DNA of 64,000 nt. It comes from Janibacter sp. CX7. Lineage in GTDB: Bacteria; Actinomycetota; Actinomycetes; Actinomycetales; Dermatophilaceae. The notes under the pieces were generated by a model. The model did not search any database. It was not told where the DNA came from and worked only from the letters and a program-made list of their open reading frames with translations. Position numbers and translations under genes: made by a program. The stretch is taken from contig NZ_CP101464.1 in NCBI RefSeq assembly GCF_024362365.1, forward strand, positions 1,798,001 to 1,862,000, written 5' to 3'. This document shows positions 17,977 to 47,042 of the stretch, piece by piece (positions within the stretch are counted from its first letter, which is position 1; each line of letters opens with the position of its first letter).

Positions 17977-19574
<1,598 letters not shown>

Positions 19575-19589
19575 TGTCGATCGGCCCCG

Positions 19590-19628: not shown

Positions 19629-19664
19629 CCAACCCTGCATCACCCTAGGGTCGTGCAGGGTTGG
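19629..19664. repeat. Palindromic repeat copy R1 (ACCCTAGGGT family)
   Basis: A 36-bp palindrome: arms CCAACCCTGCA and TGCAGGGTTGG (11 bp, perfect) around a centre containing the palindrome ACCCTAGGGT, with only two mismatched positions between arm and centre. It lies between the divergent pyrR and metN promoters, 10 bp from copy R2. Function unknown: a dimeric repressor site, a REP-like mobile repeat or an insulator are all possible. Confidence 0.75.
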
Positions 19665-19673
19665 GTTGGCCCA

Positions 19674-19703
19674 ACTCTGCACGACCCTAGGGTCTTGCAG
19701 AGT
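19674..19703. repeat. Palindromic repeat copy R2
   Basis: A 30-bp palindrome with arms ACTCTGCA and TGCAGAGT around CGACCCTAGGGTCT. Compared with R1, a C-to-T change in the left arm is matched by a G-to-A change in the right arm, so symmetry is kept. It begins 44 bp after R1 and ends 12 bp before the predicted metN -35. Confidence 0.75.
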
Positions 19704-19715
19704 GACGCAGGCGTT

Positions 19716-19745
19716 TTGCTTATGCGTTCCATAACTTCCTATTAT
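19716..19745 (+). promoter_or_regulatory. Predicted metN promoter (TTGCTT - 18 bp - TATTAT)
   Basis: The best sigma-70-like promoter in the window: TTGCTT at 19716-19721, an 18-bp spacer and TATTAT at 19740-19745. The metN GTG follows 6 bases later, so the transcript should be leaderless or nearly so. The stretch is strikingly AT-rich against its surroundings. The R1/R2 palindromes end just upstream. Confidence 0.65.
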
Positions 19746-19751
19746 CTTCCG

Positions 19752-20756
19752 GTGACCGACACCCCCGCTCTGCTCGACGTGCGCGGCCTGCGCAAGGAGT
19801 TCGCCTCCGCCCGCGGCCCCGTCGTCGCCCTGGACGACATCACCCTGTCGATCCCCCAGGGCTCCATCCACGGCATCGTCGGCCGCTCCGGCGCCGGCAA
19901 GTCGACGCTCATCCGCTGCCTCACCGGGCTCGAGCAGCCGACCGCCGGGACCGTCGTCCTCGACGGCACCGACATCCCCGGCCTGCGCGGTGCCGAGCTG
20001 CGGGCGGCCCGTCGCCGCTTCGGCATGGTCTTCCAGCACGCCAACCTGCTCGACTCCCGCTCGGCCGCCGACAACATCGCCCTGCCGCTCGAGATCGCCG
20101 GCTGGTCGGCGGACGAGCGATCGGCCCGGGTCGCCGAGCTGCTCGGCCTCGTCGGGCTCGCCGACCGGGCCGACAACCACCCCGGTCAGCTCTCCGGCGG
20201 CCAGCAGCAGCGCGTCGGCATCGCCCGCGCCCTCGCGACGCGCCCCGACATCCTCCTGTGCGACGAGCCGACCTCCGCGCTCGACGCCGCGACGACCCGC
20301 CAGATCCTCGGGCTGCTGCGCGACCTGCGCGATCGCCTGGGCATCACCGTCGTCATCATCACCCACGAGCCCGCCGTCGTGCGCGAGGTCTGCGACGCGG
20401 TGACCCTGCTCGGCGAGGGCCGGGTCCTCGAGACCGGCAGCATCGGCGAGGTCGTCGCCGACCCCGCGGGCCGGCTGCACCGCGACCTCATCCCCCTTCC
20501 CCCGCTCCCCCTCGGCCACACCGCCGGCTACGTCGAGGTCGCCCTCGGCGACTCCCGCGCCGCGACGACGAGCGTCGACGCGGTCCTCGACCTGCTGCGC
20601 GCGGCCGACGTGCCGGCCGAGGTCGCCGCCGCCACCCTCGAGACCATCGCCGGCCGCCGGGTCGGCCGCATCCAGCTCGAGGTCGACCCCGCCCGCACCG
20701 CCGAGGCCGTGCGCGTCCTCGAGGCCGCCCACCTCTCCCCGGAGGTGGCCGCATGA
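19752..20756 (+). CDS. metN: Methionine ABC transporter ATP-binding protein MetN
   Basis: ATPase of the high-affinity D/L-methionine importer at the inner face of the membrane. 334 residues: Walker A GRSGAGKST, Q-loop MVFQHANLLDSRSAADNIALP, signature LSGGQQQRVGIARAL, Walker B ILLCDEPTSALD and switch His in IITHEP. A C-terminal NIL domain (about residues 260-334) should sense intracellular methionine and inhibit transport. I chose the GTG at 19752, 6 bases after TATTAT; an in-frame ATG at 19722 lies inside the promoter spacer and would add MRSITSYYLP. Confidence 0.94.
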   Translation: MTDTPALLDVRGLRKEFASARGPVVALDDITLSIPQGSIHGIVGRSGAGKSTLIRCLTGLEQPTAGTVVLDGTDIPGLRGAELRAARRRFGMVFQHANLLDSRSAADNIALPLEIAGWSADERSARVAELLGLVGLADRADNHPGQLSGGQQQRVGIARALATRPDILLCDEPTSALDAATTRQILGLLRDLRDRLGITVVIITHEPAVVREVCDAVTLLGEGRVLETGSIGEVVADPAGRLHRDLIPLPPLPLGHTAGYVEVALGDSRAATTSVDAVLDLLRAADVPAEVAAATLETIAGRRVGRIQLEVDPARTAEAVRVLEAAHLSPEVAA

Positions 20757-22395: not shown

Positions 22396-23052
22396 TCAGC
22401 CCCCGGGCACCACGTCGGTGACCCGCGGGCGCGACCCCGGCCGGTCGTCACGGACACCCGTGATGACCGGCCGCAGTCGTGTCACAGCCTCGACGCTGCC
22501 CAGGTCGAGCAGCTCCTGGAGGATGACCCGGGTCGGCGTCATCAGCCGCAGACGGCCGGCCGCGCCGGCCGCGAGCAGCGCCTCGACCGCGTCCCACTCC
22601 GAGTCGACCGCCTCGGTCGTCAGGTGCACGGGCTGGCCGGGCGCGGAGGCCGGGACCGGCAGGACGAAGAAGGAGACGTCGAAGCGCTTGGGTGGCCCCT
22701 CGGGCGTCACCCAGCGGTCCCAGGGCACGAGCGACTCCGGCGGGGTGACCAGCCCGGTCTCTTCCGCGAGCTCGCGCAGCCCCGTCGCGACGAGGGTGCG
22801 GGCATCGGCGGCACGGTCGCCGTCGACGGGCACGTGCCGCCACCGGTGGACGTGGTCGGCCACGGTCGCGGACGACAGGGCGAGGTCGGCCCCCTTCGCC
22901 ACGTCGCCGGGGTCGCAGCGGCCGCCGGGGAAGACGACGGCGCCCGCCGCGAAGTCCATCGTCGGCTGACGGTGCTGGACGAAGACCTCCGGGCCACGCG
23001 CACCGTCCCGCAGCGGGATGACGCTGACGGCGGGCCGCGGGAGGACGCTCAC
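22396..23052 (-). CDS. Nudix hydrolase, NUDT19-like with split Nudix box
   Basis: A 218-residue Nudix-fold hydrolase. The Nudix box is interrupted: GAVVFPGGRCDPGD at the front, then about 40 residues, then GLRELAEETGL carrying the metal-binding REUxEExGU. This split is characteristic of the NUDT19/CoA-diphosphatase-like branch, although substrate cannot be read from sequence. GTG start overlapping the AI-2E family transporter gene (GTGA). It faces metQ, and only 6 bases separate the two convergent stops. Confidence 0.8.
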   Translation of the reverse strand: MSVLPRPAVSVIPLRDGARGPEVFVQHRQPTMDFAAGAVVFPGGRCDPGDVAKGADLALSSATVADHVHRWRHVPVDGDRAADARTLVATGLRELAEETGLVTPPESLVPWDRWVTPEGPPKRFDVSFFVLPVPASAPGQPVHLTTEAVDSEWDAVEALLAAGAAGRLRLMTPTRVILQELLDLGSVEAVTRLRPVITGVRDDRPGSRPRVTDVVPGG

Positions 23053-32016: not shown

Positions 32017-32046
32017 ACTCTGCAAAACCCTAGGGTCTTGCGGAGT
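32017..32046. repeat. Palindromic repeat copy R3
   Basis: A 30-bp copy of the ACCCTAGGGT family: ACTCTGCA, then AAACCCTAGGGTCT, then TGCGGAGT. One arm mismatch (A opposite G). It starts at the first base after the response-regulator stop and lies 24 bp before the convergent aroB stop, so it could act as a bidirectional terminator, although no U-tract follows. Confidence 0.7.
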
Positions 32047-32069
32047 CGCAGCCGGGCGAAGGGGGGGGG

Positions 32070-40123: not shown

Positions 40124-40191
40124 GGGTGTCTCGTGTCCAATCAGTGGTGCAGGGGGTTCTCGGGGCAGGAGCGAAGGGGGCGACCGGCGCG

Positions 40192-46567: not shown

Positions 46568-47032
46568 GTGCCGCGCACGAGTGCCGGACTGCTCCCCTTC
46601 GTCCGGGGCGAGGGCGGGACGCAGGTTTGGCTCGGCCACATGGGCGGCCCGCTGTGGGCCCGCCGGCCCCGCGGCTGGACCATCGTCAAGGGCGAGGTCG
46701 AGCCGGACGAGGACCTGCTCGCCGCCGCCGAGCGGGAGTTCGCCGAGGAGACCGGCGCGACCGCCCCGGACGGACCGCGCCTGCCCCTCGGTCAGGTGCG
46801 CCAGTCCGGCGGCAAGGTCGTGCACGCCTGGGCCATCGAGGTGACGAAGGGGGCGGACGTCACACTCGTCGAGAGCAACAGCTTCGAGCTGGAGTGGCCT
46901 CCGAGGTCCGGTCGGCGCCAGTCCTTCCCCGAGCTCGACAGGGGCGAGTGGCACGATCTCGACGCCGCCCGAGAGCTCGTCGTCGCCGCCCAGACGGCCT
47001 TCCTCGATCGCCTCGAGTCCGCATCTCCCTAA
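46568..47032 (+). CDS. Nudix hydrolase
   Basis: A 154-residue Nudix protein. The complete box is GEVEPDEDLLAAAEREFAEETGA. The N-terminus SAGLLPFVRGEGGTQVWLGHMGG resembles the small DUF1991-like NUDIX hydrolases, and the RP-rich stretch before the box (WARRPRGWTIVKGE) is shared with them. GTG start one base after the FUSC stop. Its TAA stop lies inside the diverged palindrome R4 and overlaps the TAG stop of the convergent HAD gene by 3 bases. Confidence 0.82.
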   Translation: MPRTSAGLLPFVRGEGGTQVWLGHMGGPLWARRPRGWTIVKGEVEPDEDLLAAAEREFAEETGATAPDGPRLPLGQVRQSGGKVVHAWAIEVTKGADVTLVESNSFELEWPPRSGRRQSFPELDRGEWHDLDAARELVVAAQTAFLDRLESASP

Positions 47033-47042
47033 GGTCGTGCGG
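47019..47042. repeat. Diverged palindromic repeat R4 across two convergent stops
   Basis: CCGCA and TGCGG arms around TCTCCCTAAGGTCG. It matches the middle 24 bases of R1 at 20 positions, and the two arm differences are compensatory (CTGCA/TGCAG to CCGCA/TGCGG). The core supplies TAA for the Nudix gene and TAG on the other strand for the HAD gene. The match is weaker than R1-R3, so common origin is inference. Confidence 0.45.

Follow-up and report, generated by a model that had tools for sequence, protein, structure and literature searches.

The stretch between a pyrR-like and a metN-like gene of Janibacter sp. CX7 contains two palindromes in tandem, and raises the question whether these serve the two divergent genes as a local control element or belong to something that is distributed over the genome. 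An earlier note on this DNA had read their symmetry as a sign either of selection, for dimer binding or a hairpin, or of a recently active palindromic repeat. The latter option is supported by a dispersed family of such hairpins and by one lineage-specific in-frame insertion, and the doublet is made up of copies of this REP-like family rather than being a local operator. The window comprises 64,000 bp (positions 1798001-1862000) of the 3.23-Mb single-contig genome of strain CX7, hereafter G000, whose metN has its closest named relatives in Janibacter. G006 was taken as J. indicus CGMCC 1.12511 because the pyrR-metN sequences of these two are the same, and further genomes are referred to by number.

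The doublet between pyrR and metN

As the note had described, two palindromes with a common core, ACCCTAGGGT, are located in the gap (Table 1). They recur with a period of 42 bp from start to start, and their distance, formerly given as 10 bp, was measured as 9 bp between 33-nt direct repeats or as 18 bp between the 24-bp cores. The symmetry is imperfect: when folded, copy 1 has two mismatched pairs and copy 2 has one. The C-to-T difference with its matching G-to-A change is real and is positioned just outside the cores (AACC...GGTT versus AACT...AGT). The whole doublet can be folded as one long hairpin (-34.8 kcal/mol, z -8.9, DNA parameters); that doublets are kept as such was rejected, because long-range matching showed no excess over local matching. 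Rfam matches of the long inverted repeat to eukaryotic miRNA models stayed below the gathering scores and are read as hairpin noise.

Table 1. Hairpin copies and neighbouring genes in the window
Feature	Position	Strand	Remarks
pyrR-like gene, left of doublet	18944..19525	-	phosphoribosyltransferase domain; name from the earlier note, fits the domain
Hairpin copy 1, type A, 24-bp core	19635..19658	.	CTGCATCACCCTAGGGTCGTGCAG; pattern match and fold
Spacer of doublet, 18 bp	19659..19676	.	between the 24-bp cores
Hairpin copy 2, type A, 24-bp core	19677..19700	.	CTGCACGACCCTAGGGTCTTGCAG; pattern match and fold
metN-like gene, right of doublet	19755..20756	+	ABC_tran; NIL domain just below cut-off
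Single type-A copy, 1 mismatch	32020..32043	.	between convergent genes; 3 bp past the stop of the left gene
Degenerate relative, 3 mismatches	47019..47042	.	GCATCTCC-CTAA-GGTCGTGC; overlapping 3' ends of two convergent genes

An operator or attenuator of pyrR or metN would fit the position between divergent genes. However, comparison of orthologous regions revealed the doublet in G000 and J. indicus and in none of 11 other aligned rows, representing seven different genomes (the alignment excludes loci L137, L142 and L143, and several rows are two records of one region), and the same sequence adjoins many unrelated genes, which renders a local role extremely improbable. Two other features of the gap stand apart from the doublet. 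Upstream of metN, TTATG-N5-CATAA (19720-19734), largely kept as TTATG/ATAA in the aligned relatives, resembles a conserved piece of an operator or promoter that is separate from the palindromes. In the pyrR leader (19520-19577, minus strand), a sub-threshold Rfam PyrR binding site was observed (30.3 bits, gathering 54), which is a separate feature.

A dispersed hairpin family in Janibacter

The pattern CTGCA(N4)CCTAGG(N4)TGCAG, with at most three mismatches, matched five times in the window compared with 0.16 expected from 100 shuffles. In the genome-wide search proposed by the note, 91 matches with at most one mismatch were obtained in G000 and none with the reversed pattern; at up to three mismatches there were at least 158 compared with 69 in the control, so that matches with three mismatches are mostly noise. 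The outcome that the note had named as refuting its reading, few copies without conservation, did not occur. A family framework was defined as GCA-N3-CC-N4-GG-N3-TGC with at least 8 of the 12 pairs required. It occurs 155 times in 453,885 bp of G000 stretches and 109 times in those of G006, compared with two occurrences each on reversed sequence; these stretches were mostly picked around known elements, and the counts are not a random sample. The 155 copies cover 88 of the 91 near-exact genome copies, the model searches for copies scored 150 of 746 and 150 of 687 candidates, and two copies, 2320706 of G000 and 329824 of G006, look like chance matches.

The versions differ by species: Janibacter sp. 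CX7 features GCA-RRA-CC, J. indicus GCA-TTG-CC, and others TTT, ACT or CGA. G000 contains 124 copies of type A, 22 of type T (TTG) and nine others (n = 155), and G006 contains 103 of type T and six others (n = 109), 90 of the 109 having exact TTG arms around the centre GTAG or CTAC. At single loci of further genomes, the TTG version with the centre CTAG was found in G008, G009, G010 and G012, a TTTCC version in G004 and G011, an ACTGC version in G001 and G007, and a GGAGC version in G020. Copies stand alone or form pairs, the two units of a pair being 42 or 32 bp apart. Start-to-start spacings in G000 are 42 bp (36 times), 32 bp (9) and 43 bp (5) with few others, and in G006 42 bp (20), 32 bp (13), 31 bp (9) and 41 bp (6), again with few others. 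The loops of 49 G006 pairs are unevenly oriented, namely <> (outward type) in 19, >> in 10, << in 9 and >< in 2 cases, the remaining nine having other loops.

Among 186 genomes of the bacterial family, for each of which 34 candidates were scored, model matches (E <= 0.001) were obtained in 13 of 16 Janibacter genomes, the two matches of G021 (locus L292) being doubtful. Six genomes of other genera yielded one to four matches each, several of which, G097 aside, look like other palindromes. In G097, locus L286 (about 1510-1640) shows an array of four hairpins with GCACGAGCCAAGGCTCGTGC and a CCTTGG form, whose arms are different and whose first pair, counted by eye, is 32 bp apart. At 80 loci around metN relatives, GCA..TGC palindromes were not in excess (4 compared with 5 on reversed sequence).

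Location of the copies

Genes were called with a purpose-written codon-usage gene finder, the starts of which are rough. The enrichment at 3' ends that the note had proposed to look for was found: of 95 clusters in G000, 40 are located between convergent, 35 between co-directional and 7 between divergent genes, and 13 inside genes, while convergent gaps make up 18% and divergent gaps 28% of the intergenic bases in the same stretches. The corresponding numbers in G006 are 33, 17, 4 and 4. In convergent clusters the nearest gene 3' end is a median of 18 bp away, and in co-directional ones 11 bp. Since clusters are mostly convergent or co-directional and few are divergent, the pyrR-metN doublet is an unusual, divergent copy of the family. 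Moreover, 61 of the G000 clusters fall into the origin half and 34 into the terminus half, the origin being placed near position 0 according to gyrB/gyrA-like genes, which were recognised by eye at 10-12 kb, and to a change in the strand bias of the genes.

Location at 3' ends and in convergent gaps, together with stable folds, would also be expected of hairpins acting in RNA, kept as bidirectional transcription terminators or 3'-end protectors. On the other hand, the flank composition table gives no T-run behind the elements, in which they differ from intrinsic terminators, no terminator was called on the elements of the doublet, and some copies sit within genes or in divergent gaps. Wobble pairs, which would point to a function in RNA if they were strand-specific, showed no bias toward the transcribed strand either (9 AC and 4 GT in the co-directional + orientation, 12 and 12 in the - orientation). 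A function in RNA is therefore very improbable.

Beside the hairpins, a 10-mer, GCGAAGGGGG, was noticed at 12 places in the window compared with 0.38 expected (for example at 22890-22899, 32056-32065 and 40171-40180). In 454 kb of G000 it occurs 145 times, 101 of them in genes and 44 between; 84 of the 145 lie on what is presumed to be the leading strand, and the 10-mer may represent a Chi-like or another oriented motif.

Copies inside genes

Of 17 gene-internal type-A copies, 16 share one reading frame and encode TLQ(N/D)PRVLQ-like peptides; a second frame is also open, as judged by eye, and the gene around copy 302232 is probably miscalled. Each of the three credible gene-internal clusters in the G006 stretches coincides in position with one inside a G000 gene. 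A carboxylase gene, so named from its domains, harbours an in-frame insert of 39 bp that contains a type-A hairpin; the insert is absent in all 10 relatives aligned on the right strand (G002 and G005, without a full match, were left out) and is a lineage-specific in-frame insertion. Three further relatives, L261, L262 and L265, had entered the alignment in the wrong orientation, and for these it is the match lengths, 582-585 compared with 624, that agree with an empty site. At the flanks of the insert, CACCGG on the left is the reverse complement of CCGGTG on the right, so that their similarity is inverted and not direct. Across the family, symmetry extends by at least four bases beyond k=16 in 13 of the 155 copies, compared with 3.1 expected when flanks of different copies are combined. 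Two loci of G000, L204 and L185 (G000:C1:2999559 and 1712310), show perfect symmetry for at least 15 bases past the usual element on each side, forming palindromes of at least 60 bp.

Different versions at the same sites

At the pyrR-metN point, G000 and J. indicus both carry a doublet of almost equal length between matching flanks, the inner arms being of type A in one and of type T in the other. Analogous differences emerge within genes. The linker of a gene which we take to be cydD, judging from ABC-transporter domains and neighbouring genes, was compared in 15 of the 16 Janibacter genomes with a match, hairpin classes being assigned by eye. Eight of the 15 have recognisable hairpins at one and the same position, in several versions: two A in G000, two T in G006, one GCATCTCCCCAGGGACATGC in G004, three GCACGACCTYAAGGAGATGC in G012, four GCATTCCCCTATGGCAATGC in G010, one T-like and one degenerate in G002, three of the TCTCCCC kind in G011 and one GCACCTCCCTAAGGAGATGC in G007. 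G008, G009 and G020 contain remnants, and G001, G003, G005 and G019 no hairpins. A tree of the cydD flanks groups G000, G006 and G004 (SH-aLRT 100) and unites G010 and G012 as sisters (99); therefore, close relatives differ in hairpin version.

The C terminus of an IucA/IucC-family gene presents two A in G000, two T in G006, two T-like hairpins in G010, two of the CGA type in G012, one other each in G002 and G011, a remnant in G008 and no hairpin in G003, G004 and G009. At this C terminus, locus L305 of G009 features a different in-frame repeat of SASSSGNVG-like units, also hairpin-like, where others have hairpins. Within a penicillin-amidase-family gene, an internal site is occupied by one TTTCC-like hairpin in G000 and by two of the TTCCC type in G006; G004 has one there, and the five other genomes read have none. 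Of the 76 A-only clusters of G000, 22 could be aligned to G006 intervals, 16 of them with T and six without an element; all five aligned T-only clusters correspond to T. Ten of the 16 A/T pairs are convergent gaps, a sharing that may be mere chance because all stretches were chosen around known elements. By arm class, the 155 copies of G000 comprise 101 A/A, 21 T/T and 33 with at least one other arm, and none combines one A arm with one T arm. Dispersal, preference for 3' ends, fixed spacing, species-specific versions and version differences at the same codon in close relatives are thus observed.

Because versions differ at the same positions and hybrids of A and T arms are lacking among the 155 copies, replacement of whole hairpins in place is favoured over gradual compensatory mutation, suggesting that older versions give way to newer ones at the same position. 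The same mobile family might also have produced this distribution by independent insertion at preferred points, behind stop codons and in tolerant linkers, with deletion of older copies. Such a process accords with the strong preference for 3' ends and convergent gaps, the poor alignment of flanks and spacers in many A/T pairs, the existence of empty sites and the near-unrelated spacers of the G000 doublets. We nevertheless consider it rather unlikely in view of the nearly equal length and matching flanks of the pyrR-metN doublets, the agreement in codon position and reading frame at three sites inside genes, and the lack of mixed A/T remains within any hairpin. In its outcome, in-place replacement is indistinguishable from new insertion at a preferred point accompanied by loss of the old copy.

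Variation within versions

From the paired difference between the two palindromes, it had been argued that symmetry is preserved while sequence changes. Within type A (n = 124) this holds for the flank pair k=13, the pair described in the note, which is matched in 78 copies compared with 59.9 expected, a number reached in none of 2000 shuffles. It does not hold for the variable stem pair k=6 (65 compared with 60.3, P 0.22) and hardly for k=7 (71 compared with 64.9, P 0.07). Covariation of varying strength is seen at k=11, 12, 13 and 17, and the two arms change nearly independently of each other at k=6 and k=7. The loop of G006 copies is oriented, as GTAG, with 3 of 103 copies paired at k=2, and the commonest version in the G012 loci examined has non-complementary arms (seven copies, four of them from two gene-internal sites). 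The mid-spacers of 32 A-A doublets of 42 bp in G000 are nearly unrelated (identity 0.388 compared with 0.372 in shuffles), while 20 G006 doublets have their mid-spacers partly in common (0.445 compared with 0.274). The two partners of A-A doublets are similar in direct orientation (162 matches compared with 134.9; none of 2000 shuffles as high) and show no resemblance in inverted orientation.

These data also bear on the idea that a dimeric chromosome protein binds the palindromes cooperatively, the versions following changes in its recognition. Spacings of 42 and 32 bp correspond to about four and three helical turns, one turn apart; together with the independence of purine variation at k=6 between half-sites and the cluster excess in the origin half, they fit a protein site as well. 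The oriented GTAG loop of G006, the non-complementary arms of the main G012 version, the 39-bp insertion in the carboxylase gene and the coexistence of two versions in one genome without A/T hybrids argue against it, and we regard it as improbable. Both the protein-site and the terminator readings are less supported than a mobile hairpin.

Relation to known palindromic elements

REP/BIME elements with GTAG or CGTC tags, as described in the main text of Di Nocera et al. (2013, PMC3733652), are palindromes of 20-40 bp in many copies, also as pairs or dimers, with 3'-end and convergent location, gene-internal copies and families differing between species. CGTC families are devoid of a dedicated transposase, and different REPs near the same recB site in two Xanthomonas species are mentioned once (PMC3733652); the words actinobacter, Micrococc and Streptomyces do not appear in this main text. 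The Janibacter hairpin is likewise short, multi-copy, mainly extragenic and near 3' ends, with units paired at regular spacing. In contrast to REPs, it is a near-palindrome whose centre measures 4 nt, the flank composition table shows no unpaired tag, GTAG or CGTC, at the hairpin foot, the GTAG of G006 hairpins is the centre and not the foot, and version differences at the same sites affect several loci across the genus.

A further difference concerns the transposase. The RAYT domain (Y1_Tnp, PF01797) was detected in none of 19 genomes, 13 of them Janibacter and with G019-G021 left out, by a search whose control was positive in 5 of 14 known genomes. The lack of PF01797 is shared with CGTC-type REPs, although the CGTC tag is missing. 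MITEs have a target-site duplication and a parent transposon. Reading by eye of the genes flanked by copies disclosed no transposase and no parent element, and the flanks of the single clear insertion are alike in inverted rather than in direct orientation.

Noc binding sites of Bacillus are dispersed palindromes that are rare near the terminus. They are not known to be mobile, paired at fixed spacing or version-switching; their motif resembles the TTTCC version of G004 and G011, and a literature search on a Noc-like motif, covering open-licence papers, gave no match. Rickettsia palindromic elements are longer and are read in frame inside protein genes. Palindromes read in frame in protein genes are common to both, whereas the Janibacter units measure about 24-32 bp, lie mostly outside genes and exist in species-specific versions. 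The Rickettsia elements are also mentioned in PMC3733652. In-place version switching across a genus was not found in a literature search confined to open-licence papers.

A REP-like family without RAYT, probably evolving in concert

Taken together, the family is REP-like and RAYT-less and is best read as evolving in concert. With a probability of roughly 0.6, we interpret it as a dispersed hairpin of Janibacter whose lineage-specific versions spread and supplant older ones, the pyrR-metN doublet being an old site. An element with the GCA-N3-CC-N4-GG-N3-TGC framework would spread without a RAYT transposase, each lineage amplifying its own version of inner arms and loop. The current version would enter new sites and also supplant older versions at occupied ones, leaving type A at the pyrR-metN site of G000 and type T in J. 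indicus, and replacement would act on the whole hairpin. Folded in single-stranded DNA, for instance on the lagging strand, the framework might be cut by an enzyme or serve as a template-switch point, upon which the hairpin may be re-copied from another element. Against this account, no mobilising enzyme was found, and six of 22 aligned A-only clusters are empty in G006. More tentatively, and with rather less confidence than in the main reading, the process might be a homing-like overwriting, in which an undescribed enzyme other than RAYT recognises the shared framework and the current version replaces inner arms and loop as a unit at dozens of sites, coding ones included, so that the copies of a genome would change in concert and form a species dialect. 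A tolerated selfish element is the default reading, a benefit to the host being unproven.

There is no settled account of the persistence of REP-like repeats, of their uniformity within a genome or of their divergence among relatives, particularly for families devoid of RAYT. Since sister species carry different hairpin versions at one position in cydD, comparisons of strains can separate copying from overwriting. Furthermore, hairpin DNA here forms species-variable, in-frame protein linkers in an actinobacterium, and the Janibacter sites constitute a set for finding what moves RAYT-less palindromes.
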